Positions 448 through 17,234 of a stretch of DNA of 22,803 bases are shown in pieces; the first letter of the stretch is position 1; every line of letters begins with the position of its first letter. Source of the DNA: a virus; the IMG/VR virus record IMGVR_UViG_3300024518_003008, positions 1 to 22,803 of that record. The stretch is one strand, 5' to 3'. Under the pieces are notes generated by a model. It worked only from the letters and a program-made list of their open reading frames with translations, ran no database searches and was not told the DNA's origin. Position numbers and translations under genes: made by a program.

Positions 448-609
448 TTAGTTACAATTGTTTTTGTCTAAATCAATTGGCTTGTCACCATTATAAAACC
501 ATACATAAGACGAAAGTTTCGTTCCATCTTGTGTATAGGTGCATTTTTTGCCTACCGAGCAGGCGCTTAATGCAAATAATAATGCAAGAACTAAATATAA
601 TTTATTCAT
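448..609 (-). CDS. Small lipoprotein (53 aa, lipobox LSAC)
   Basis: The gene starts at ATG 609 behind a strong ribosome site (GAAGGAG, 5 bases upstream) and ends at TAA 448-450. Residues 1-16 (MNKLYLVLALLFALSA) are a textbook lipoprotein signal peptide: Lys3, a hydrophobic core, then lipobox Leu14-Ser15-Ala16-Cys17. Lipidation at Cys17 would leave a mature protein of only 37 residues with two more cysteines (23 and 52), which could form a disulfide in the periplasm. It overlaps the upstream 59-aa gene by 8 bases and sits 1 base before the membrane coiled-coil gene. Proposed roles, both inference, are an o-spanin-like lysis partner or an entry-exclusion lipoprotein. It lacks the proline-rich character of Rz1, so a spanin role is uncertain. 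Confidence 0.8.
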   Translation of the reverse strand: MNKLYLVLALLFALSACSVGKKCTYTQDGTKLSSYVWFYNGDKPIDLDKNNCN

Positions 610-781
610 GTTTCTCCTTCGTTTCATCCATATATACCATAGAATGGACTTTATTCACAAAGCTTTGTTCATACGTTAATGCTTCTGCGTTTTCTTTTGC
701 GTTTCCTACCTGACAACATGTACCGGATTCTTCTTTTTCTTTGGTATGCGTATTGCAAGTTTTTTTTGGGTCTATTGGCAT
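602..781 (-). CDS. Small hydrophilic protein with a Cys-Cys pair, unknown function
   Basis: A 59-residue protein from ATG 781. A GTG at 790 in the same frame would add three residues. The ATG overlaps the TAG of the metallothionein-like gene (772-774), which favours a coupled start. The N-terminal half has three cysteines (TCNTH, GTCC) amid Lys/Glu; the C-terminal half is polar and probably helical. There is no signal peptide or membrane segment. Lying directly after a Cys-rich metal-binding-type gene, it may act with that product, but this is only inference from position. I recognise no family. No strong Shine-Dalgarno is present at either start. Confidence 0.55.
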   Translation of the reverse strand: MPIDPKKTCNTHTKEKEESGTCCQVGNAKENAEALTYEQSFVNKVHSMVYMDETKEKHE

Positions 782-918
782 GAGAGACACTCATCGTTGT
801 TTACTGTAGCCCCTTGAGGATTACAATTACATTTTTCGCACGCACATACACCATTGGCATCTGAATGTCCGCTTACATTACAGTGACAATCACACAAACA
901 ATCTTTACACTTTGTCAT
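772..918 (-). CDS. Metallothionein-like Cys-rich metal-binding protein (48 aa)
   Basis: A 48-residue protein with 11 cysteines (4, 7, 9, 11, 13, 25, 27, 30, 32, 44, 47) and two histidines (12, 18). The N-terminal cluster is CKDCLCDCHCNV and the central cluster is CACEKCNCN. The latter is the CxCxxCxC pattern typical of bacterial metallothioneins such as cyanobacterial SmtA (CACEPCLCNV). Three CxxC pairs and five CxC pairs suit a polynuclear Zn/Cu/Cd-thiolate cluster in the cytoplasm. There is no signal peptide. Known bacterial members are around 55 residues, so size fits. The start overlaps the TGA of the 17-aa peptide gene as ATGA; the ribosome site is weak, implying coupling. A viral metal buffer or redox protein is the likely role; the metal is unknown. 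A structural zinc-knuckle protein is an alternative, though the cysteine density is high for that. Confidence 0.82.
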   Translation of the reverse strand: MTKCKDCLCDCHCNVSGHSDANGVCACEKCNCNPQGATVNNDECLSCQ

Positions 919-968
919 TTGTACTTAAAAAGCCATTCCGCAAATTTTTTCCATAATTTTTTAATCAT
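915..968 (-). CDS. 17-residue cationic amphipathic micro-peptide
   Basis: The micro-ORF reads MIKKLWKKFAEWLFKYK then TGA. It has a strong ribosome site (GAGGAG, 7-base spacing to ATG 968), better than that of most long genes here. Its start overlaps the TAA of the 217-aa gene and its TGA overlaps the next ATG (918) as ATGA. The peptide has six lysines, one glutamate and regularly spaced Ile/Leu/Trp/Phe/Tyr, so a helix would have one hydrophobic and one basic face, a membrane-active profile. It may be a functional membrane peptide, or a leader whose translation drives the metallothionein-like gene. The ribosome site and double overlap support translation; the function is inference. Confidence 0.6.
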   Translation of the reverse strand: MIKKLWKKFAEWLFKYK

Positions 969-1614
969 CCTTAGTCTCCTCAATACTATAGAAGAATTTA
1001 TTGCTATCTTCTGTTTTCCATTTACGACTATCTTCAACATTCCATTCACTGGTTTGAACTTTCCAGTCGAAGGGAATTTCATCCTTCACAGTGAAAGATG
1101 GAATACTCCAGATTAGTCTATTGTTTGGCTGAGCCGCATAATTGCCATTTTCTAATGCCAATACATGAGCGCACTTATGTTCGTGCGGAATTTCCGAATG
1201 ATCGGTGTCCACTATATTACTCTCTGGGTGACCCCAGTCAACCGTAAAAAGGTACGCACCGGCGTACCATTTTTTATCTTTTCCTATGAATTTACCGGAC
1301 TGACCGTCCAAGACATCAAAAGAAGTAACGCTAGGATAGTAACTAAAGCAATTCCATAGCTCCAGCTCGTCAAGTCGCATCCTAGGAACCTCTTTGACAT
1401 CAAAGCCTCTTTGTATGAACGCAGAGATTGGCAAGCGGTAGAATACAGCTCCGTTTTCCATAATTGCATGGAAGAGTATCGGACGCCCTGTAATCGATGC
1501 AAACCCAAAAAGTAAGCAGTCTTCCACTTCTCCATGATGTTCTTTAAGATCATAGAGATATTCTCTCCTTACCTGCGCATAAGTTGCAGGTATATTTGCA
1601 TTCAGATAGGCCAT
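961..1614 (-). CDS. Conserved-looking phage protein of unknown function (217 aa)
   Basis: A 217-residue soluble protein starting MAYLNANIPATYAQVRREYL, with no signal peptide or membrane segment. It is rich in aromatic residues (many Trp, Tyr, Phe) and has an acidic C-terminus. Notable stretches are EDCLLFGFASITGRPILFHA (30-50), LFTVDWGHPESN (around 120) and HEHKCAHVLALENGNYAAQP (145-165), the last two carrying His/Cys residues that could bind a metal or form an active site. I do not recognise a named domain. A ribosome site (TAGGAG) lies about 10 bases before ATG 1614. It sits between a 33-aa membrane peptide gene and the small-gene chain. Confidence 0.85.
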   Translation of the reverse strand: MAYLNANIPATYAQVRREYLYDLKEHHGEVEDCLLFGFASITGRPILFHAIMENGAVFYRLPISAFIQRGFDVKEVPRMRLDELELWNCFSYYPSVTSFDVLDGQSGKFIGKDKKWYAGAYLFTVDWGHPESNIVDTDHSEIPHEHKCAHVLALENGNYAAQPNNRLIWSIPSFTVKDEIPFDWKVQTSEWNVEDSRKWKTEDSNKFFYSIEETKDD

Positions 1615-1738: not shown

Positions 1739-3589
1739 CTAATGTATTTCGCCCCAGTTTTTACCCGATTCATAGTCTACCTTATTTGGTATCTCTAGTT
1801 CAACTGCAGCTTCCATTATATCGACTATGTGTTGTGCCTGTATATCATTTTCTACAGAAATATCCAGTTCATCGTGTATCTGAATATGAGGAATAATTCC
1901 CTCTTTATACAAATTTAACATAGATTGTTTTGTCATATCAGCAGCGGATCCTTGGATGAGTCTATTCAAAGCTTTGTATGTGAAAGCTCTTTTGATCCCT
2001 GGTCCGTGTTCCTTGATCGCTGTTTCATGATCCAAAGGTTTATGAATCCCGAACCTCATGGGTTCCCACAAATGAAAACGACAACGTCTACCCAACAACG
2101 TACGAATATGTCCGGCATCTTGGGCTCGGTTCGATGCAACATCCATCAGTTGTTTAACAAAGGGTACCCGACTGTGATACATTTTAAAAAGTTCGTTCGC
2201 TTTATCTTTACTCACACCTAATTCTGCTTGAAGTTTATTTTTTCCCATTCCATAAAATAATCCAAGATTAATAGTCTTCGCTTGGATTCTAGGGATGTCT
2301 GCCATCTTTGCAACAATGCCATGGAAATCTGGTTCTGTTTCCTTATAAGCTTGGACTACATCGTTCACACCATATAGGTTTTCCATCTTGGCATAGTGGA
2401 CCACGAGCCTGGGTTCTTGTTGGTTGTAATCAAAACAACCCCACTTACACTTTTCTTCAGGCAAGAAAATAGAACGAATCAAAGGTCCGAGTTCCTTGTT
2501 CCGTGCAGGAATTTGTTGAAGGTTTGGGTTATGATAACTAAATCTCCCCGTCACGGTTCCTCCATTGTCCGATCGAAGTTGATTGATTTCGGCATGGATT
2601 CTTCCCTTATGGGCATATTTTAAAATAGAATCTATAAAGGTCGTGTGTGCTTTATTAATTTCACGAGCCTTAGCTATCTTTTTTACAATAGGATTAGGGT
2701 GATTGACTAAAAAATTCTTAGTAAAACTAGGAGCTTTGGTTTTTTCTGTGCGTTCATAAACTAGCTTCAATTTTTCAAAGACTTGTGCTATACTTCTGGC
2801 CGCCCAAATCTGCACATCGATACCCGTTTCTTTCTTGACATCCCCTAGTAATTGGTTTTCCATAATTGCCAAGTTTTTTTTATGTTTATGGGCTGCTGCT
2901 TCATTAACTCTTACCCCCTTCATACGCATGTCTATTAAACAGGGTAAAAGATCTGTTTCTAATTCAAAAATAGAGTCACAATCCTCATGATAAATTTCAT
3001 ATTTCATTTCTTTCCATAAGCGTAAAGTAAGATCGGCGTCTTTTTCTGCATACTCCCCCACGTACATAGCTGGCAGCTTATACATCTCGGACTTGGGATC
3101 AACGCCCAGGGCACTCGCCGCCTCTCTTAAAGCTGTTTCATTTTTTCCTTCTTTTAGATACTCCCTGGATAAAGAATTAAGGTCATATTTAAATCTGTTT
3201 TCGTTCACAATTCCCGCAGCAATCATAGTATCAATAATTTTTCCGTTAAGTTTCATGTCGGGAAGTGTTTTAATCCAACAGACATCATACATCGCATTGT
3301 GAAAAACTTTAGAGGCATCGGTCTTTAGAATTGTTCTAAACCAATCAAGAACTTTCTTTTTATCCATATTCCCGCCCCCTTCATGGGCGATAGGGTAATA
3401 ACCTTTCCATCCTTCTACTGCGACCGCAATACCCGTTATACATCCATCATTAGTAGCGGACCCGGAGCCTCGAGTTGTTAAGTTGGTATCTTTAGTTTCT
3501 AAATCAATCGCAATTTCCTTGGCTTCTTTTAGGTCAGGAAATTCAGTGGGTTCTAACCATTCTGTTTGAGCTTTATAAAGTGTTATCAT
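1739..3589 (-). CDS. Family A DNA polymerase with 3'-5' exonuclease
   Basis: A 616-residue replicative polymerase, smaller than T7 gp5 (704). Residues 1-200 are a 3'-5' proofreading domain with Exo I D29/E31 (AIDLET), Exo II N98-D102 (HNAMYD) and Exo III Y180-D184 (YAEKD). The polymerase domain has the TGRFSYHNPNLQQIP segment (347-361), motif A D387 (FDYNQQEPR), motif B R434/K438/Y446 (RIQAKTINLGLFYG) and motif C H572-D573-E574 (IHDE). All catalytic acidic residues are present, and there is no 5'-3' nuclease domain. The residue aligning with E. coli Phe762 is Leu442, the Leu762 type. The ATG overlaps the TGA of the SET-domain gene (ATGA) with no ribosome site, so it is probably translated by coupling. 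Confidence 0.97.
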   Translation of the reverse strand: MITLYKAQTEWLEPTEFPDLKEAKEIAIDLETKDTNLTTRGSGSATNDGCITGIAVAVEGWKGYYPIAHEGGGNMDKKKVLDWFRTILKTDASKVFHNAMYDVCWIKTLPDMKLNGKIIDTMIAAGIVNENRFKYDLNSLSREYLKEGKNETALREAASALGVDPKSEMYKLPAMYVGEYAEKDADLTLRLWKEMKYEIYHEDCDSIFELETDLLPCLIDMRMKGVRVNEAAAHKHKKNLAIMENQLLGDVKKETGIDVQIWAARSIAQVFEKLKLVYERTEKTKAPSFTKNFLVNHPNPIVKKIAKAREINKAHTTFIDSILKYAHKGRIHAEINQLRSDNGGTVTGRFSYHNPNLQQIPARNKELGPLIRSIFLPEEKCKWGCFDYNQQEPRLVVHYAKMENLYGVNDVVQAYKETEPDFHGIVAKMADIPRIQAKTINLGLFYGMGKNKLQAELGVSKDKANELFKMYHSRVPFVKQLMDVASNRAQDAGHIRTLLGRRCRFHLWEPMRFGIHKPLDHETAIKEHGPGIKRAFTYKALNRLIQGSAADMTKQSMLNLYKEGIIPHIQIHDELDISVENDIQAQHIVDIMEAAVELEIPNKVDYESGKNWGEIH

Positions 3590-3888
3590 ATATTATAGAA
3601 GGTATAACGCAGGGTTATCTCTTCTCCTTTTTTTATGTCTTGGGTTGTCATGAGATTCCATTTCTTGCGATGAGAACCCTCGCTAAGTAAAAGTTCTACC
3701 TTCACACAGTTGGGAGTATTGGAATGATTAATAAATCCTCCCAAAGGAGTTCGAATGATGGCGTCATCAATCTTAATATGCGTAGTCCCCAGAGTCGTTG
3801 CTTTGTTAATCTTTTGATTGGCAAAGAGTCCTAGACCATTGATACCACTTTCTTTAATCGTTACGGATTCCGGTAGAGGTTTATACAT
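3586..3888 (-). CDS. SET-domain protein, putative protein-lysine methyltransferase
   Basis: A 100-residue protein from ATG 3888, behind AAAGGG. A TTG start at 3906 would add six residues. It carries SET-domain landmarks in order: the SAM-binding turn GINGLGLFANQKI (about 16-28), the signature GGFINHSNTPNCV (about 51-63, with NHS), and the C-terminal LMTTQDIKKGEEITLRYTF (about 79-97), matching the usual RDI..GEE.T..Y. It lacks pre-SET and post-SET parts, so it is a minimal SET similar in size to the chlorella-virus vSET (119 aa). The expected reaction is methyl transfer from SAM to a protein lysine; the target here is unknown. It overlaps the DUF3310 gene by 8 bases and polA by 4, placing it inside the replication operon. 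Confidence 0.85.
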   Translation of the reverse strand: MYKPLPESVTIKESGINGLGLFANQKINKATTLGTTHIKIDDAIIRTPLGGFINHSNTPNCVKVELLLSEGSHRKKWNLMTTQDIKKGEEITLRYTFYNI

Positions 3889-4093
3889 CTTTGTAATCCC
3901 TTTCAATAATCATTTCACAATAATGAATTGCTTTTAGTATATCTTGCTTACCATCTTTAAATGGATGCCTAGAAATATACTTAATTATATTCCCTTCTGC
4001 AAATAACATTTTATTTTCATGGACAAAAGTGCTGGGTTGAATCTTCATTTTTTTATAGTGTGATCCTCCAATTTGTTTTTCATAGATACTCAT
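3881..4093 (-). CDS. DUF3310 (SaV-like) phage protein
   Basis: A 70-residue protein from ATG 4093; an upstream in-frame GTG at 4111 would add six residues. The start MSIYEKQIGGSHYKKMKIQP followed by FAEGNIIKYISRH, KDGKQDILKAIHYCEMIIE is the typical DUF3310 pattern (GGSHY..M.IQP, then N.IKY..R...K.....DL.KA..Y). Family members are common in phages beside replication genes; some have been linked to nucleotide kinase activity like T7 gp1.7, but no kinase motif is visible in this short protein. The GTG start has no ribosome site, and the ATG overlaps the stop of the 23-aa micro-ORF as ATGA, which supports the shorter form. Confidence 0.85.
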   Translation of the reverse strand: MSIYEKQIGGSHYKKMKIQPSTFVHENKMLFAEGNIIKYISRHPFKDGKQDILKAIHYCEMIIERDYKDV

Positions 4094-4161: not shown

Positions 4162-5669
4162 ATCTGATAAAAATTATTCTCCTTTGGTGAAAGAATATAT
4201 AAGGTATGTTGAGTCCTTGTAATTCCTGTATAAAACTGTCGATGAACAGGATCAGGATTACGTTCATAAGATTTAGAAGCATTCCAAGATAGATCGGGCA
4301 TCAAAGTAACTTTTCTTGACTCTCCTCCTTTGGCTCCGTGAATAGTGGATAAGGTAATTCTCGGAGGTTTACTTAAATCCTCTCCATTTCTTTGCATCGA
4401 TTCAATATAGTTAACTGTTTTGTGATCACACTCAAGGGCTTGAGACCAGGGCCGGTTTTCAAGAAGACCATGCTGTTGTTTACAGTCCTCCATTGTATAA
4501 CTTTTATCAGGCATCATCGTTTTGCAGGTTTTGAATCCTCTCCGTAGTTGTTTTTTCTTAACGCCCAGATAACTATAGATTCTTTTAACGGATTCAAACG
4601 GGAGCTTGCCCCCTTTCCTCCATTCTTCCCATTCTAATAGGGCTGTTAAAAAATTTTCTGAAACACGGTTATTTCCTTTTGTTTGATAAGGATAGCCCCA
4701 TGATTCTAAATAATCTTTGACTCTGTCCAACATGTAATTAGCACTAGCTAACACTAACATCTTGCCTTCTTTAAAATCTACGGAACGTAAACTATGTACC
4801 CAGTGTACTTCTCCTTCTTCATCTCTAGGTTTCCATATTTTAGGTTGTCTTTTAGAAAGTCTATTTACTATTAGATCGGCCAGTTTATGTACTTTAGAGG
4901 GAACTCTATAAGATTGGGTAAGAACTGTTCTTTTCCCTTGTAATCCTAAGAAGTGATCTACATCTGCACCTTGAAAAGTATAAATAGCTTGGTCATCATC
5001 CCCGGCTATAAAAGATTTATGGGAATTCTTTTCCAGCAGATGCACCATTTGCCATTGAAGCCAGTTTAAATCCTGGGCCTCATCAACGAACAGTACATCT
5101 AACTGCGGAGCAAGTTGCTTTTGAACAACTATTTCGATGAAATCAGTAAAATCATATTTATGATTATTTTTTTTAAATACAGGTAAGGCTTTGGCAATTC
5201 GTTGTAGCTTTAACCAATTAATCTTTCCTCTATGTTCATTACGATCATACTGCTCTTCAATACTAACTCCTCGATATCGAGCGAGATTAATTTGATTTAG
5301 ATATTCATTTTTCGAGATAACCATTCCTGTTTCATCTACACTGGTTTCTGTATTAAAATTAATTACTCCAATCCACTCAGCAAATTCTTGATAATCTGCA
5401 GTTTTCATTAGTTGGGTAGAAGGATCAATTCCTAACAATCTGACCGCCATAGAATGAAGTGTGCGAAAATAAGGTAAGTCTTTTTCATTCAAGTCAAAGC
5501 CTTCAATTTTTTGAGCTCTAACAATAGCCTCAACGTTGGCTCTTTTACTAAAGGATACATAGCCAATGCGATCAGGCTTAATTCCTTCTTGTAAAGCTTC
5601 GGTTACTTTTTGTAATAATGTCTGTGTTTTTCCTGTGCCTGGAGGGCCAAATATAATTTCTCTATTCAT
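4158..5669 (-). CDS. UvrD/PcrA-like superfamily 1 DNA helicase
   Basis: A 503-residue SF1A helicase, shorter than UvrD (about 720). Motifs are in order: Walker A GPPGTGKT (8-15), motif Ia YVSFSKRANVEAI (37-49), TLHSMAVRLLG (70-80), Walker B FVDEAQD (194-200), motif III GDDDQAIYTFQGA (223-235), motif IV LTQSYRVP (250-257), motif V TLSTIHGAKGGE (439-450) and motif VI TGITRTQ (481-487). It should unwind duplex DNA 3'-5' using ATP; the accessory 1B/2B domains are reduced. Its ATG overlaps the stop of the primase gene as TAATG, so primase and helicase are produced together. With no DnaB-type helicase visible, it may be the main unwinding motor at the phage fork; that is inference. Confidence 0.95.
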   Translation of the reverse strand: MNREIIFGPPGTGKTQTLLQKVTEALQEGIKPDRIGYVSFSKRANVEAIVRAQKIEGFDLNEKDLPYFRTLHSMAVRLLGIDPSTQLMKTADYQEFAEWIGVINFNTETSVDETGMVISKNEYLNQINLARYRGVSIEEQYDRNEHRGKINWLKLQRIAKALPVFKKNNHKYDFTDFIEIVVQKQLAPQLDVLFVDEAQDLNWLQWQMVHLLEKNSHKSFIAGDDDQAIYTFQGADVDHFLGLQGKRTVLTQSYRVPSKVHKLADLIVNRLSKRQPKIWKPRDEEGEVHWVHSLRSVDFKEGKMLVLASANYMLDRVKDYLESWGYPYQTKGNNRVSENFLTALLEWEEWRKGGKLPFESVKRIYSYLGVKKKQLRRGFKTCKTMMPDKSYTMEDCKQQHGLLENRPWSQALECDHKTVNYIESMQRNGEDLSKPPRITLSTIHGAKGGESRKVTLMPDLSWNASKSYERNPDPVHRQFYTGITRTQHTLYILSPKENNFYQI

Positions 5670-7180
5670 TAAAAACTTCCTTTCTTTATTGTTGGTAATG
5701 GTTCGTTAGTATTTTTAGGACGTTCAAAAGCCTTGACCACCATTACTCTAACATTCATCTCATATATTCGGAATCTTCTTTCTTCCACTCCAAAATATTC
5801 TTTAAGACGATGAGCTGTTTTGTTGTGTTCAAGTGCTTTCCATTTAGCACGTTCTAAAAATTTCCAAAAATCTTTATACCTAAAATATGTTTCTCCCTCT
5901 TCAGTATAAGGGACACCTCTATTTAAATCTTCTTTAACTCTTCCTTTAGCTCGGTTGGTACAAAAATCTTCTAAGTAACCCCTTAGCTGTTCTTTAATGG
6001 ATAAACTTTCAGGAGCTTCTATTTCTTCGAGGTTTTTATAAAGTTGTTTTAAGAGTTTAGTCCAAATAATTTTAGAAACTCCAGGAACAATTAAATTGAT
6101 TTGATCCATGCATGCTTTTTGAAATTTATCTTGTTTTTGTAATTCTTCTGTATCTAATTCTATTGGTTTACCATTTACATTTAAAAACCATATAGGAGGA
6201 AAACATGTTAGCTTTCTTAAACTATTTAGATCTGGCATTGAAGACCCTTCCCCAATTCCAAATTCTCGAGTCTGACAAGTCATAGAATCGCAATGAGCAC
6301 AAATGGGTTGATCTTTACAGGTATAATTATAATCTTTTTTTCCTAGGGATTTAATGATGGTCATAACTTCTTGAGGATTGAGAGGAGGATTCATATATTT
6401 AGAGTTATAAATTCCTAATTGATCTTGCCAGTTATCTGGATGTGCTTTCTTAAGATAAACCCCTAAATTATACAGACCATTATTCCGTGATCCCTCAGGA
6501 AATCCTTCATTACATAAAATATCTAAACACGGAGGTCCCTTCTTGATAGGTGAATCTTCGGTTTTAATATGAATGGAATTAAAATCTTTTCTCTCAATAC
6601 CATATTTTTCATACATGAGAAAAAACTCTTCTAGAGTAGCTGCTTCGCCATTGTCTTTAATAGCATATCGTGTTGTTTGATTTCCGTGATGATAAGGAAG
6701 ATTTAAAAAATTTCCTGTATCCCCTCGATCAACTAATATTTTGGTTTGTTTTGGAAAAATTTCACATTCAGAATAACCTAACGCAGCTGCTAACTCTTTT
6801 AATTTAGCTTGCATTGCTTCGGCTTCTATAAATTCTTTCGTAAATAAAAATACATGAGCCCCTCCACTTTTGGACCTACATAAAATAAAGGGAATATTCT
6901 TTTTTCGAATTCGTGTTATAAAAGTTTTATGATCAAAATTATATTGATCAATATCAATACATCCCCATTTACATTGACTATCTGCATTAATAGGAATGAT
7001 TCCTAAGGCTGGATCTTTTCCTTCAAGATGAGCGTGCCAGAGTCTATCTGTCACTATATCTTTTTTAATAAATGCTTTTCCTTTGACTTTTTCACCGTTG
7101 GTGAGAGAAACTTTAGAGACATACTGTCCGTATGCACTATTAAGACCTTGAAATATATTTTTAAATCTTTCTACTGTCAT
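5669..7180 (-). CDS. AEP primase-polymerase (TOTE-type) with PriCT-like and Zn-binding regions
   Basis: A 503-residue protein. Residues 60-165 carry archaeo-eukaryotic primase signatures: catalytic CIDID with D76 and D78, then CRSKSGGAHVFLF (101-113) with His109 for nucleotide binding, and EIFPKQTKI/GNFLNLPY (140-163), typical of TOTE-like phage primases. Residues 222-282 (EGFPEGSRNNGLYNLGVYLKK to PPLNPQEVMTIIKS) resemble the helical PriCT module. A four-cysteine cluster follows (C288, C294, C297, C302), a probable zinc or Fe-S site. The C-terminal 180 residues are unassigned and helical. It likely makes primers for the family A polymerase. The gene is preceded by a GC-rich hairpin in a 63-base gap, the largest gap in this operon, and overlaps the helicase start by one base. 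Confidence 0.88.
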   Translation of the reverse strand: MTVERFKNIFQGLNSAYGQYVSKVSLTNGEKVKGKAFIKKDIVTDRLWHAHLEGKDPALGIIPINADSQCKWGCIDIDQYNFDHKTFITRIRKKNIPFILCRSKSGGAHVFLFTKEFIEAEAMQAKLKELAAALGYSECEIFPKQTKILVDRGDTGNFLNLPYHHGNQTTRYAIKDNGEAATLEEFFLMYEKYGIERKDFNSIHIKTEDSPIKKGPPCLDILCNEGFPEGSRNNGLYNLGVYLKKAHPDNWQDQLGIYNSKYMNPPLNPQEVMTIIKSLGKKDYNYTCKDQPICAHCDSMTCQTREFGIGEGSSMPDLNSLRKLTCFPPIWFLNVNGKPIELDTEELQKQDKFQKACMDQINLIVPGVSKIIWTKLLKQLYKNLEEIEAPESLSIKEQLRGYLEDFCTNRAKGRVKEDLNRGVPYTEEGETYFRYKDFWKFLERAKWKALEHNKTAHRLKEYFGVEERRFRIYEMNVRVMVVKAFERPKNTNEPLPTIKKGSF

Positions 7181-12070: not shown

Positions 12071-15000
12071 GTTGTTTTTAAATTTTGTTTCCGTGCAATC
12101 TCTTGATCGCTTGGAGATAATAGAGCGGATTGATTGGCTGTCAAGCCTTCTTTATTAAGCGTTAATGATGGCCGAGTATAAATCTGTGGGTTAAAGCCGG
12201 TCGTATCTCCTGGTGCTTGTTGACCCATGTTAAAGAAACTTTCTTTTTGTGGTCTGAAGTCAAAGATATCTGTTAGGTCTGGCCATTCAGGTGATGACAA
12301 TGTAATACCACTCATGGTTTGAGCTAACGATTGAAGCGCTCTTTCCGCTACTCGATATGGATTTTCTGTGCCTAATTTTCTAGCATTATCTTCAAAGACT
12401 TGTTGTACATTTTCAGATATTGTAAATGGAATAAATTGATTTGTTAACAAAGCCGCGCCATCTTTTCTAGAAATTCTTCCAAGCACATTCATGATCTGAT
12501 TTTCAGAGGTACCTAAGATCATACCGGCTGTAAGATCTCGAGACATTTCTTTCATCTCTTCCCACTTTGCTTTGTTGGCAATGATATATCTATCCACGAC
12601 ATCTTGAGGAGAGATAGGATCTCCTCTTAAAAGTTTAGAATTAAATTCTCTACGAGCATCACGAATACCTCTTTGGTATCCACTCATCTTAAAGTCTAAG
12701 CTTCGTGCAGGATCTACTGTCACCGGTCGGTAACCTGTAAATCCTAGTGCTTCATCGGTTAGATTATATGTCTGTCCTGTTCCCTGGTAAGGTCCGATCG
12801 TTCTGCTTGGTTCTCCTGTCGCAGCAAAACCTAAACGAATTAACTGTTGTAAAGAAAAAGGTGCTTGAGATCTAACGAGGTGAGCGATAATATTAGATAC
12901 CTTTTCTCCAGTCGGAGTAGCATCGGTATATAAAACTTTGCCATCTTTAGTTTTTCCGCCTCCTCTTACCACATCCAACATAGCTTCGGTCCAAATGGAT
13001 TCAGATATAAAAGGCTCACCGAGTTCGGCTGTAGATGTGGCTAATCCTTTCATGAAGCTTTCCATTAAAGCTTCTTCATTCGTCTCTCCCTCCGCTACTT
13101 TATTAAGAATGGTTTGAATAGGTCGAGTTAAAGTATCGTAGGCAAAGCCATGACTGAAGTCGATGTATTTTAAGTCTCCAGTTTCTTCATCTCTCATGGG
13201 TAAGATGGTGGAGTTCTTGGACCATGAAGGTAAGAATCTTTTCAACGCTGCCAATTCGTCGTCGGTATAGTCGTAGATGGTTTTAAACATCTCTACAGTA
13301 GCCGCAGGTACTATAGCTGTGGTTGCTGCCAACCCCGCTAGTCTTTTCATCCCAATCGTTCTTAAAATAGGATCATTAATTTCTTTAATAGATTGTTGCA
13401 CAATCCCGGTACCAGTTCTTAATATTTCTGCAGGAAAAGAAACGAAATTTCCAACGGGAAATCTTCTTAAAGTTCGAATAAATTCAGGGACATATTCATA
13501 GTTAGGTACGGTATTTCTTACAATATCAGCGGCCTTTTCTTTAATCTCTCGAATGCTCGGCATCTTTTTAATTAAACCTTTATCGAAGGCTCGTTTATAG
13601 GCGTTGCCATAACGATAATTTTCCATGACAAAGTTACTAATTTTCCAGAAGTCATCTTCCATGACGTACATGTCCTGACTAAACTTCGCAAATTTCTTAG
13701 CCCAGTTCGGTTGCAGCATCATTCGAGCCGCACGATCGGTAGTCAATCTTTGACCAAAATTAATATCGCCCATTAGTCTAGAGATATCTCCATACCTTAC
13801 ATTGGTATTCACTACTCCGAGCTCTAATAATTCTCTATAGAAAGCCTGAGCTTCGGGAGCATTCGCCTTGAACATTTGAGGTTGAACAGAACCCACAGCT
13901 TTCTTCCACGCTTGAGCTAATACTTTAGGGTTTTCAAACCAGATTCCATTAGCGGTTTGAAAAGTAGCCGCACTGAAAAAGTTTCTGGCATGAGTAACCG
14001 GTGACAACACCGTCTTTGCAAACTGTGATGTTGCCTTAGGAAATAAAAACAAACTGTCATAAATAAAGCTGGCAGTTTTATTATTAATAATATTTTTTTC
14101 TGCTCCCTCGAGGGCTTCCATTAAAGATCGTTCGCCCCAGGCTCCATCAGGAAAGGCACTTCGTATAGGGTTTTCCATAGCCGTTTCTCCCCAAGGTCTG
14201 GCTACTCGTACTCCAGTTTGTGGATCCGTGACCACGCTTCCTTTATAAAGAGCAACGTCCGCTTCGCCTAAGGCATTTCTGGCAGCCGATTCAGTTCCAT
14301 AAAAAAATCCTCTTCCTCCTGCTGCAATGTTGGTAGCAGATTTATCAACTAACTTTTGTAAAAATTCTCCCTTACGGGCAACCATGGATAATCGTTGAGT
14401 ACCATGAATCATTTTTGCTCGTACATCTTTGACTTCTCCAAAAAGTTCTCTAAAAGCTTTGCTTCCTCTCCCGATGGTCGTCGGTCCAGGAATCCCTTCT
14501 GCTCCAGGGAGAGCATACCTTCCTTTAGTGGCGACTTGTTCTAATCTTTTTACAAAGGTTCCATTTTGAACCAGGTCAGCAGCCACAGAGTCTTTTACAA
14601 AACTCGCAGGAACTTTAAAGGTAGGAGCGGAGGGAGCTTTAAACTTATCCGCTTCTCTCATTAATCTAACTAAGCTATCCTGGGGTTTAATATTTTTAAG
14701 AATGTAATCGACTTGCGTCTTGGCATTTTCATAGGTCAAGGGCGCTGGAACATCTACCATCTCGCCGGCAGTTCTTTTCGCTTCAGCTCTCGAGATGGCT
14801 CTTCTATTCTGTCTCATGAATATACTCGCTACCTTTTCAACGGCTTCGGCGGTTGGTTTAAAATTTAAGAAAGGAATTAAAGATTTATTTTGAAATACAT
14901 TATAGGTTCGACTCAACCACCCTCTAAATTGATCTCCCATAATATTTTTAAAAACAGGCTGCGCTTCGATCGGAAGATTGGATCGAATGAGTGTTGCCAT

Positions 15001-16128
15001 ATCCCCCCATTTATTTCTCATCATGCCCATGTTGTTGAAAATATTCATGACATGTTCTGACTTGGCTCCATTGTTCATGAGCTTCTCACCAATATTCTCC
15101 ATCATTTTTGCATCCATTTCACCCATGGTCACTCGACCGGCCTTATCAAGGCCGGATTTACCTGAGAATAAAAGTTCATCTAAATCTTCATAGAGTTTAA
15201 ACTTTTCTGCTCGGGTTGTTTTATTGAAAGTTGATTTGATATTAGGAAAAATTCTATCGAGGTCTTTATCTACAGCTCTCGATAATTCGTAGGCTCGATT
15301 CATATCGGCCCCTCTTTTTCCAATTTGTTCTCGTCTGGTTAAGAAAGCATCTTCAGGAATATCTCCTCTCGGTCTGCCTCCTGAGGCTACTTTATTTAAA
15401 GCTCTATCCCATAAGCTGTTAGAATATTTTAATTCTTTTCCTCGTGTGGCTAACTGTTTAATGATGGAGCCCGTTCCTCCAATAATTCCTGTAAGTAAAG
15501 CTCCTTCTGTTCCAAATTTAATTCGGTTAACAATTTCTCTGACCGCTTGTTCTTTTCCACCCTCATCAGATTCCGTATCTAAAGCAGTGGGTCCTCCTAA
15601 AAGATCTCCAATGGTTCCAAACTCTCCAACGTCTGCAACAAAAATTCCTTCAGCGATACCACCCGACACAGCACCCGCCATAAATTTTGCCGTCTTGCCT
15701 TTGGCATTTAATTGAAGAGCTTCCTGTGCTCCTTTAGCCAGGGTTGGATTGCTTAGAGTAAAGTAATTACCCTTCTTCGCAGCCATGATTGCTTTGGTTG
15801 CTGCCTTGGTTCCATATCGGAACGCCATGGTTGCTGGCACACCAATGTTAACTAAGGCTGCTGCAATTTTTCCAGCGGTCGTGGACTCGGCTTTCTCTTC
15901 TATGTTTCCTAATTTTTTATAAATGTTTTCATCAAACCACTGTTCAACTTCTGTGGCTTTGTCAGTGTCACCGGTAAGATCTAAAAGGGTTGCGCCTAAT
16001 GAAACAGCGCCTTCAGGTATTCGAATTAAACCGGTAGCAATACCGGATAGAACTGAGGAGATAAGACTTGGGTCATTAGATTGTTCAGAGGGAGAAAGTT
16101 TAGAAGGATCCCATTCACGAATAGCCAT
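12067..16128 (-). CDS. Very large virion protein, probable internal/ejection protein (1353 aa)
   Basis: A 1353-residue protein with a good ribosome site (AAGGAG, 7 bases before the ATG). After an acidic start (MAIREWDPSKLSPSEQSN) comes a small-residue hydrophobic stretch (LISSVLSGIATGLI, PEGAVSLGATLLDL, about 22-51) and another near 82-112 (AGKIAAALVNIGVPATMAF), which could insert into or cross membranes. The rest is mainly helical with many basic patches and no recognised enzyme motif; no lytic transglycosylase signature was seen. Size and position, last virion gene before lysis, are like T7 gp16 (about 1318 aa), an ejected core protein. That comparison rests on size and context, not sequence. 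Confidence 0.82.
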   Translation of the reverse strand: MAIREWDPSKLSPSEQSNDPSLISSVLSGIATGLIRIPEGAVSLGATLLDLTGDTDKATEVEQWFDENIYKKLGNIEEKAESTTAGKIAAALVNIGVPATMAFRYGTKAATKAIMAAKKGNYFTLSNPTLAKGAQEALQLNAKGKTAKFMAGAVSGGIAEGIFVADVGEFGTIGDLLGGPTALDTESDEGGKEQAVREIVNRIKFGTEGALLTGIIGGTGSIIKQLATRGKELKYSNSLWDRALNKVASGGRPRGDIPEDAFLTRREQIGKRGADMNRAYELSRAVDKDLDRIFPNIKSTFNKTTRAEKFKLYEDLDELLFSGKSGLDKAGRVTMGEMDAKMMENIGEKLMNNGAKSEHVMNIFNNMGMMRNKWGDMATLIRSNLPIEAQPVFKNIMGDQFRGWLSRTYNVFQNKSLIPFLNFKPTAEAVEKVASIFMRQNRRAISRAEAKRTAGEMVDVPAPLTYENAKTQVDYILKNIKPQDSLVRLMREADKFKAPSAPTFKVPASFVKDSVAADLVQNGTFVKRLEQVATKGRYALPGAEGIPGPTTIGRGSKAFRELFGEVKDVRAKMIHGTQRLSMVARKGEFLQKLVDKSATNIAAGGRGFFYGTESAARNALGEADVALYKGSVVTDPQTGVRVARPWGETAMENPIRSAFPDGAWGERSLMEALEGAEKNIINNKTASFIYDSLFLFPKATSQFAKTVLSPVTHARNFFSAATFQTANGIWFENPKVLAQAWKKAVGSVQPQMFKANAPEAQAFYRELLELGVVNTNVRYGDISRLMGDINFGQRLTTDRAARMMLQPNWAKKFAKFSQDMYVMEDDFWKISNFVMENYRYGNAYKRAFDKGLIKKMPSIREIKEKAADIVRNTVPNYEYVPEFIRTLRRFPVGNFVSFPAEILRTGTGIVQQSIKEINDPILRTIGMKRLAGLAATTAIVPAATVEMFKTIYDYTDDELAALKRFLPSWSKNSTILPMRDEETGDLKYIDFSHGFAYDTLTRPIQTILNKVAEGETNEEALMESFMKGLATSTAELGEPFISESIWTEAMLDVVRGGGKTKDGKVLYTDATPTGEKVSNIIAHLVRSQAPFSLQQLIRLGFAATGEPSRTIGPYQGTGQTYNLTDEALGFTGYRPVTVDPARSLDFKMSGYQRGIRDARREFNSKLLRGDPISPQDVVDRYIIANKAKWEEMKEMSRDLTAGMILGTSENQIMNVLGRISRKDGAALLTNQFIPFTISENVQQVFEDNARKLGTENPYRVAERALQSLAQTMSGITLSSPEWPDLTDIFDFRPQKESFFNMGQQAPGDTTGFNPQIYTRPSLTLNKEGLTANQSALLSPSDQEIARKQNLKTT

Positions 16129-16139
16129 CCATTATCTCC

Positions 16140-17234
16140 TTAAATTTTCTTTTGTTTACGTAATTTAATAAGCTCTTCTATAGAAGTTACTTCTTTTCCT
16201 AAACTTGGAATTATATAAACCTGTTTCTCTTCATCAAAGATAATTTTAAATTGACCAGGATTTTCTGAAAAAGCTTCTCGAATAGTTTTTCCTGATGGTC
16301 CTCTAGCCATTTGTGTTATATCTTCTCCAAAATAAACTGACTCTTTGGCTCTTTTTGGACCGGCTCCTTTAGATATGAGTTGTTTAACTAACATATCATC
16401 GGAGTACATCGCTTTGTCTCTATTCGCTTGAGCTTTTCCCCACGCTTTATATTTTGCTAACATTTCTCTTCGCTCTGAAGGATCTGCTATTTTACGAATG
16501 TCACCGATCGCTCCTGAAATATTTTTCATTTGAGCGGTGCTTCCCCATTTATCTCTGGAACCACCAATCAATCGTTCAGCCATGGACAACATCATTTGAC
16601 TTCTTTTTTCTTTTTTTTCTTCGTCCGTGTACAATTGATCACTGTCTGGATCTGTAGGTAAACCGTCACCTGCGGGGTCTTCAATTTCTGCTTTTTCTAT
16701 CACTTCATCTTTAGTATATAGATCTTTATCCTTATCCTTATACCCACCCGTGGTTAAAATTTTCTCTTGTTCTATAGCTTTTTTCTTATAAGGGTCCGAG
16801 AACTTCTTAAAATAATCCTTATAAGCTTCAGGATTTTCTTTTAATAATTTTCGTGTTCTCCTTTCCAACTTATTTAAAATTGGTCTTCCTTCAAGATCAT
16901 AATCTGCTGTAGTGTCAATCATACCTTGCATACCAGCGATAGGAATTCCTTCGGTTCCTTCCTCCGTATCTAGATAATAGTCTCTTTCAAACATATCTGT
17001 AATATAAGGTTTAGTATATAAAGGACCTTTTAAAATTTCTTCGGCTGTAAGTTGAGCTTCAGGATCATAATACGTACGACCTTTTTGATTTCCACCAATG
17101 TCATACCCCACTCTTCCACCATAATTAAATCGTTGTCTTTCTTCATCAGTAACCAAATTACTAGCAATCCCTCTGCCGTAAGCAGAGTTATGTTTATTGA
17201 ACATCGGTCTGTTTAAAACTTTAGAATATGCCAT
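16140..17234 (-). CDS. Virion protein with N-terminal GGRVG motif (364 aa)
   Basis: A 364-residue hydrophilic protein. The N-terminus has RPMFNKHNSAYGRGI and then FNYGGRVGYDIGG (36-48), a motif shared with the 446-aa virion protein two genes upstream. The middle is highly charged (YKDKDKDLYTKDEVIEKAEIED); the C-terminal part (YSDDMLVKQLISKGAGPKRA, FKIIFDEEKQVYIIPSLGKE) looks folded. No membrane segment or enzymatic motif is seen. The ATG overlaps the TAA of the preceding gene as TAATG. Lying between two probable internal virion proteins, it is likely a minor structural or ejected protein; the assignment is from context. Confidence 0.72.
   Translation of the reverse strand: MAYSKVLNRPMFNKHNSAYGRGIASNLVTDEERQRFNYGGRVGYDIGGNQKGRTYYDPEAQLTAEEILKGPLYTKPYITDMFERDYYLDTEEGTEGIPIAGMQGMIDTTADYDLEGRPILNKLERRTRKLLKENPEAYKDYFKKFSDPYKKKAIEQEKILTTGGYKDKDKDLYTKDEVIEKAEIEDPAGDGLPTDPDSDQLYTDEEKKEKRSQMMLSMAERLIGGSRDKWGSTAQMKNISGAIGDIRKIADPSERREMLAKYKAWGKAQANRDKAMYSDDMLVKQLISKGAGPKRAKESVYFGEDITQMARGPSGKTIREAFSENPGQFKIIFDEEKQVYIIPSLGKEVTSIEELIKLRKQKKI

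Follow-up and report, generated by a model that had tools for sequence, protein, structure and literature searches.

What does a 48-residue protein with eleven cysteines do for a marine phage? The question is raised by the window analysed here, a stretch of 22.8 kb that makes up the whole of one virus record (G000), in which a preliminary description had picked out an unannotated Cys-rich ORF and proposed a phage-encoded, metallothionein-like protein. Reverse-strand translation confirmed the ORF itself. The minus strand of 772..918, with the ATG at 918-916 and the TAG at 774-772, encodes MTKCKDCLCDCHCNVSGHSDANGVCACEKCNCNPQGATVNNDECLSCQ-stop, 48 residues of which 11 (23%) are Cys, including CKDCLCDCHC and CACEKCNC; the plus strand of the same interval is interrupted by stops. 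The best 45-residue stretch holds 11 Cys, whereas in 40 shuffles of the whole window that preserved dinucleotides the maximum was 5-8. The ORF is a real gene, far beyond chance. The protein had been described as having two clusters. The motif CKDCLCDCHC is indeed present, but it makes up the N-terminal portion of a single core rather than a separate cluster, and a third element, the C-terminal DECLSCQ, had gone unremarked. As we divide it, the protein consists of a predicted metal-binding core (C4-C32; 823..909, minus strand), a variable linker of 10 residues in the window (793..822, minus strand), and an ECLSCQ tail (residues 43-48; 775..792, minus strand).

A family of Cys-rich phage genes

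The window is a fragment of a relative of the HTVC023P-like pelagiphages. Its family A DNA polymerase (1739..3589, minus strand) is 53-62% identical to its closest counterparts, those of 023Pt_psg01 and Pelagibacter phages HTVC027P and HTVC023P, and its structural proteins likewise resemble the HTVC023P group. The placement follows from these polymerase and structural protein matches, and we infer the host of the window phage from that of the isolates of the HTVC027P/HTVC023P group. Elsewhere in the window we observed a SET-domain protein (3586-3906, minus strand; PF00856, E=8.8e-11), which is unexpected for a marine phage, and a primase (5669-7180, minus strand) that combines an archaeo-eukaryotic primase domain (PF22548 AEP-TOTE) with a Cys cluster and has a UvrD-type helicase next to it.

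The Cys-rich gene lies within a tight minus-strand string. Upstream is the PHROG 3704 protein (961..1614), followed by a 17-residue ORF (915..968; MIKKLWKKFAEWLFKYK), the Cys-rich gene, and a gene for a small protein containing CC (602..790) that overlaps the end of the Cys-rich gene. The start of the 17-residue ORF overlaps the PHROG 3704 stop, and at its other end its stop codon and the ATG of the Cys-rich gene share the sequence ATGA; this suggests translational coupling. The encoded microprotein is short, cationic, Trp-rich, unannotated, and probably amphipathic; similar microproteins are present in relatives, and it recurs right after PHROG 3704 in other contigs (L317, L321, L340, L357). 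The PHROG 3704 protein of the window gave no Pfam match despite the labels 'PurM' or 'ferredoxin' that are attached to it in phage records and PHROGs, and the name looks wrong.

Genes related to the 48-residue ORF are numerous. A first scan of viral contigs returned 78 related loci, a profile scan at least 238 confirmed loci, and a core-pattern scan at least 120 stretches. The first pooled pattern set contained 187 distinct proteins and a later pooled set 253 distinct cores, both among the matches listed. At 132 of the 187 loci (among the matches listed) PHROG 3704 was the nearest upstream marker, which is the arrangement of the window's group, and at 81 of the 187, with the same scope, a homologue of the 602-790 gene was the nearest downstream marker. 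The gene stands between the scaffold and capsid genes in Autographiviridae pelagiphages, where it is unannotated or listed as 'hypothetical'. Among 84,980 prokaryote genomes the core pattern matched a single one, on a phage-derived contig with a phage polymerase and PHROG 3704 alongside, and the family profile matched no other genome among 297 Pelagibacterales. The phage origin that had been proposed is borne out. Searches of Pfam, PHROGs, NCBIfam, and PDB sequences returned no match that stands, no structure of the family was found among the solved structures searched, and a PADLOC search for defence and counter-defence systems gave no match for the window protein. The lack of annotation noted at the outset thus extends to the whole family, which is without name or profile in the libraries searched and is frequent in phages of SAR11-type hosts.

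The family evolves under constraint. The dN/dS ratio is ~0.14 over 2,810 pairs, indicating purifying selection, and both Cys codons are used at the invariant Cys positions. The preliminary description had named loss of the Cys pattern in related phages and frame breaks in homologous genomes as grounds for doubt; the pattern is conserved throughout a large family, and no frame breaks were seen among the homologues read. A further sample of 80 loci was chosen through PHROG 3704 only, without requiring any Cys motif. The strict motif lay just downstream in 40 of the 80, and 28 further loci had a variant containing CxxCx3CHC (a count from the listed ORFs); of the 12 that remained, 3 were cut off. 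Reduced Cys/His-rich ORFs also occur directly after PHROG 3704 in HTVC023P (L260; 28768-29175, plus strand; CFECHHDCHCDKICPKCSC, unannotated) and in HTVC027P (L259; 8812-8970; CEFCGHKISHHVHEGINKCAHCDC), and three single contigs (L032, L038, L139) each hold two different copies of the Cys-rich gene.

The Cys/His core

The core follows the pattern C-x2-C-x-[CH]-x-C-H-C-x4-H-x6-C-x-C-x2-C-x-[CH]. The search pattern dictated most of these Cys positions, so that their invariance does not count as evidence of its own. Positions 9 and 32 were left free, and each of the 175 distinct cores has C or H there (125/50 and 164/11), with no Tyr or Arg intermediates. A change from Cys to His requires two base changes. 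Exchange confined to C and H is the behaviour of metal ligands, unlike that of disulfides. The ligands at positions 9, 18, and 25 are gained or lost together, with all three in 202 cores, none in 38, and few mixed. Minimal variants (CxxCNKMCHC...CxxCxC), in which the three are missing together, retain 7 Cys and 1 His. This is enough for two tetrahedral sites, and the minimal form is predicted to hold two metal sites and the full form about three. The substitution patterns make it very likely that the microprotein binds metal, as the preliminary description had predicted, and the metal is probably zinc.

On the PHROG 3704 tree the distribution of full and minimal cores needs 16 changes, of which the well supported branches force only 1. 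Repeated independent origins of the two forms are therefore not shown, and the minimal type may go back to a single origin and have spread by exchange. A Pfam match to GASA (E 0.04-0.16) was discarded, as it reflects Cys composition only and is far below the cutoff.

The ORF had also been called very close in form to the core of the bacterial metallothionein SmtA. This holds for the 8-residue word CxCxxCxC and for nothing beyond it. A search against the PF02069 profile (gathering score 33 bits), which the preliminary description had suggested, found no match for the window protein or for 16 relatives (E up to 10/5), and hhalign against PF02069 members plus SmtA gave a probability of 6.4% over 20 columns, only around CxCxxCxC. 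The order of the clusters differs as well: PF02069 proteins have an N-terminal CxCxxCxC, then YCxxxCAxxH and a C-terminal GCxHxxCxC, whereas the phage core has CxxCx[CH]xCHC first and CxCxxCx[CH] second. Profile searches, hhalign, and cluster order together rule out membership of PF02069. A spacing shared with the C-terminal half of SmtA (H-x6-C-x-[CH]-x2-C-x-C) we take as coincidence, because PF02069 members vary there. In the open-licence literature we found nothing relevant on phage or viral metallothionein, and no paper there dealt with metallothionein together with pelagiphage, auxiliary metabolic gene, or megavirus.

In a more general sense the protein is metallothionein-like, with Cys at 11 of 48 positions and C/H-only exchange at positions 9 and 32. 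It might then buffer zinc or another d10 metal, with the terminal CxxC as two extra ligands and the likeness to NrdA described below as convergence. The 23% Cys content, the several CxC motifs, the 11 ligand positions of the full core, and the Cys/His exchange would all suit such a buffer. The AlphaFold2 model of the window protein has no secondary structure (pLDDT 55.6), and absence of a predicted fold is what metal-thiolate proteins would show. The 297 Pelagibacterales genomes contain no PF02069 gene, so the host is without that type of buffer. In L357, moreover, the CHC protein after PHROG 3704 is replaced by a zinc ribbon with a His-rich tail (HTHDDGVTHAHENGDVPHTHEENN), with the Trp-rich microprotein next. 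Against these points stand the exclusion from PF02069 and, above all, features of the tail that buffering leaves unexplained, and we consider a metal buffer a rather unlikely account of the gene.

Conservation outside the ligands bears on another possibility, namely a zinc-finger adaptor or regulator of a host protein or nucleic acid whose tail is a general thioredoxin-docking or anchoring motif. The main group shows good conservation of residues K3, D20, Y22, and G23, with D20 and G23 partly imposed by the search pattern, and the position of the gene beside replication genes, or between the scaffold and capsid genes, would be in keeping with an adaptor. However, relatives sampled with no motif imposed differ at D20 and G23 and in loop length, so that conservation centres on the ligands and the tail. 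No zinc-finger family was matched, and the core is replaceable, as the tail-bearing proteins below demonstrate. An adaptor role appears improbable to us.

The C-terminal tail

The comparison of the tail with ribonucleotide reductase (RNR) was prompted by HTVC008M and Mosig, in which PHROG 3704 is flanked by nrdA and nrdB. The NrdA proteins of these phages end in CESCAI and CESCTI. The C-terminus of SAR11 class I NrdA is YEECLSCQ in 10 of 10 sequences, and ECL[SAT]CQ ends 19 of 20 other alphaproteobacterial class I NrdAs; the ECLSCQ-stop of the window is identical to the SAR11 NrdA terminus. Within the phage family, a CxxC followed by one residue ends 177 of 253 distinct members among the matches listed, nearly all of them as E-C-[LE]-x-C-Q, behind linkers of 2-35 residues. 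The CxxCQ tail is missing in the other 76 of the 253 (~30%, among the matches listed), which have other C-termini.

In host genomes this ending is nearly exclusive to NrdA. The ECxxCQ-stop DNA pattern had 21 matches in 40 SAR11 genomes, consisting of 20 nrdA ends and 1 phage-contig copy of the Cys-rich gene. With a TGA stop the pattern had 4 matches in 76 alphaproteobacterial genomes, 4/4 at nrdA positions. As a background, 1 of ~23,500 other ORFs (at least 40 residues) in the fetched viral loci ends in CxxCQ. A Pfam search found no RNR domain in the 48-residue protein, which is thus not part of an RNR catalytic subunit. SAR11 bacteria differ in their reductase: the large subunit read in 20 genomes was class I NrdA in 10 and class II NrdJ of 1,200 residues in 10, and NrdB was present in 15 of 30 genomes sampled. 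The SAR11 NrdJ C-terminus, CPECGSFTLVRNGTCLKCDTCGATTGCS, is unlike the phage pattern, nor does the phage protein qualify as a class II RNR Cys-rich domain.

Judged by its identity and distribution, the tail is probably a functional mimic of NrdA. We found no description of such a mimic in the libraries or open-licence literature searched. The proposal of a metal-buffering auxiliary gene overlooked this copy of the NrdA tail, the most informative feature of the protein, which points to ribonucleotide reduction. A buffer leaves unexplained why the terminus is exactly [DE]-C-x-x-C-Q behind linkers of such different length, why it is restricted to NrdA in host genomes, and why it has been reused on MazG and on another zinc core.

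This reuse emerged when viral contigs were scanned for ECxSCQ-stop and ECESCQ-stop and each ORF was read. The scans returned 145 distinct members of the Cys-rich family and also phage NrdA, zinc-ribbon-like microproteins, MazG, and other small ORFs. The zinc-ribbon-like microproteins end in SDECLSCQ (e.g. L551, L605), the same tail, whereas their core of 4 Cys (CxxC...CxxxC or CxxC...CxxC) is unrelated. In 3-4 contigs (L552, L581, L588, L605) such a protein lies directly after PHROG 3704; in this slot the core has been exchanged and the tail kept. MazG nucleotide pyrophosphohydrolases ending in DPECESCQ were identified by PF03819 (E=1.8e-10), and MazG proteins whose linker is DDDD-rich and whose C-terminus reads (D/E)PECESCQ were seen in L644, L661, L668, L673, L695, L696, L708, L711, L714, and L715. 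In L307 the CHC protein has no CxxCQ tail and the next gene, a homologue of the 602-790 gene, ends in DDTNDCEWCQ; here the tail seems to have moved onto the neighbouring gene. We suggest tentatively, and with somewhat less than even confidence, that ECxxCQ is a portable C-terminal module on at least three unrelated cores, which would provide detachable redox tails that act in trans and let phages without RNR control or boost the host enzyme.

Among the members without the tail are those of Gjalp, Eyrgjafa, and HTVC041P, which were grown on cultured SAR11 strains; isolates on HTCC1062 and HTCC1063 also belong here. Mimicry of NrdA predicts a match between the phage tail and the RNR class of the host, and the role of the tail-less members is unaccounted for unless their hosts use class II RNR. 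Tail-less proteins often share another terminal motif, such as KDHGTDMSFENEVKYD (L171, L174, L183, L214, L222, and others), and similar stretches occur in unrelated pelagiphage proteins (HTVC033P, 13915-14214; HTVC103P, 16000-16422). The Autographiviridae members have a shared C-terminus of their own, [KE]DFWK[IV]M[ST]xRxxK (L080, L081, L162, L189, L208, L253). SAR11 NrdB C-termini were compared as a source of the alternative tail ...SFENEVKYD and did not match.

Host ribonucleotide reductase and related systems

The supply of dNTPs limits phage DNA synthesis, and in the usual account phages either encode an RNR themselves or recycle the DNA of the host. A search of 12 phage records for the large subunit of RNR found none; among these records the 3 complete genomes of the group are tail-less and the tail-bearing records are 37-60 kb contigs that may be incomplete. 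With no RNR gene in the records searched, the phages examined would depend on the enzyme of the host. The explanation that we favour, with slightly better than even confidence and from sequence comparisons, is a metal-scaffolded mimic of the NrdA tail that acts in trans on the redox relay of host RNR. The small cytoplasmic phage protein would comprise two modules. The Cys/His core (residues 4-32) would bind metal, most likely zinc, as a compact scaffold, and a flexible linker would lead to ECLSCQ (residues 43-48), copying the terminus of alphaproteobacterial class I NrdA. In NrdA the CxxC pair, once reduced by thioredoxin or glutaredoxin, re-reduces the active-site disulfide. In the preferred version, the phage tail would accept electrons from host thioredoxin/glutaredoxin and hand them to host NrdA, and the re-reduction of NrdA would raise the dNTP supply for phage DNA synthesis. 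Alternatively, the phage tail may compete with the host NrdA tail; we regard the chances that the relay helps RNR rather than blocks it as evenly balanced.

Competition could also be the whole function, making the protein an inhibitor or decoy that rivals the NrdA tail for access to thioredoxin/glutaredoxin or to the active site of NrdA and shuts down host dNTP synthesis. Yeast Sml1 is a precedent for RNR inhibition, the same evidence of tail mimicry applies, and a detached tail without an enzyme could compete. When the Cys-rich domain of NrdJ was expressed separately, activity was not restored in trans (PMC5704485), a failure to sustain turnover that favours a decoy and weighs against the favoured relay. 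On the other hand, phages without RNR in the records searched need dNTPs, and blocking host RNR would be harmful unless host DNA is recycled; a pure blocker, moreover, would not need a conserved shuttle Cys pair. We judge a dedicated decoy to be improbable. Three further points count against the relay: a six-residue motif can converge, PHROG 3704 was not seen adjoining nrd genes in the cyanophages checked, and the AlphaFold2 model is of poor quality.

If the relay reading is true, mimicry of the host NrdA tail by a six-residue terminus would be a third route to dNTP supply. SAR11-type bacteria are among the most abundant in the sea. The reading also supplies an easily searched rule, namely small phage ORFs with a final ECxxCQ, and turns in-trans regeneration of RNR into a directly testable question.

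Among known systems, alphaproteobacterial class I NrdA shares with the phage protein the terminal [DE]ECL[SAT]CQ-stop behind a variable, poorly conserved linker. In NrdA the tail belongs to the catalytic subunit, whereas in the phage it belongs to a 48-residue predicted metal-binding protein. At its C-terminus class I NrdA carries two Cys that thioredoxin or glutaredoxin reduces and that then restore the active site (PMC5704485). In class II NrdJ, zinc is bound by a domain rich in Cys that has a redox pair at its end; some bacteria encode this domain in a separate gene, and electrons can move between subunits (PMC5704485). The Cys-rich domain of NrdJd, or nrdJb of the NrdJa+b type, resembles the phage protein in its zinc-binding Cys, its extreme C-terminal redox Cys pair, and its possible existence as a separate polypeptide, but it has 150-220 residues and six conserved terminal Cys (PMC5704485), compared with 48 residues and another Cys spacing in the phage protein. 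SmtA/BmtA (PF02069) are likewise small and Cys-rich with CxCxxCxC and a similar number of Cys/His ligand positions, and SmtA binds 4 Zn(II) (PMC10612145). Their cluster order is reversed relative to the phage protein, with no profile match between them, and the phage protein has the NrdA-like C-terminal tail that SmtA and the PF02069 proteins compared lack.
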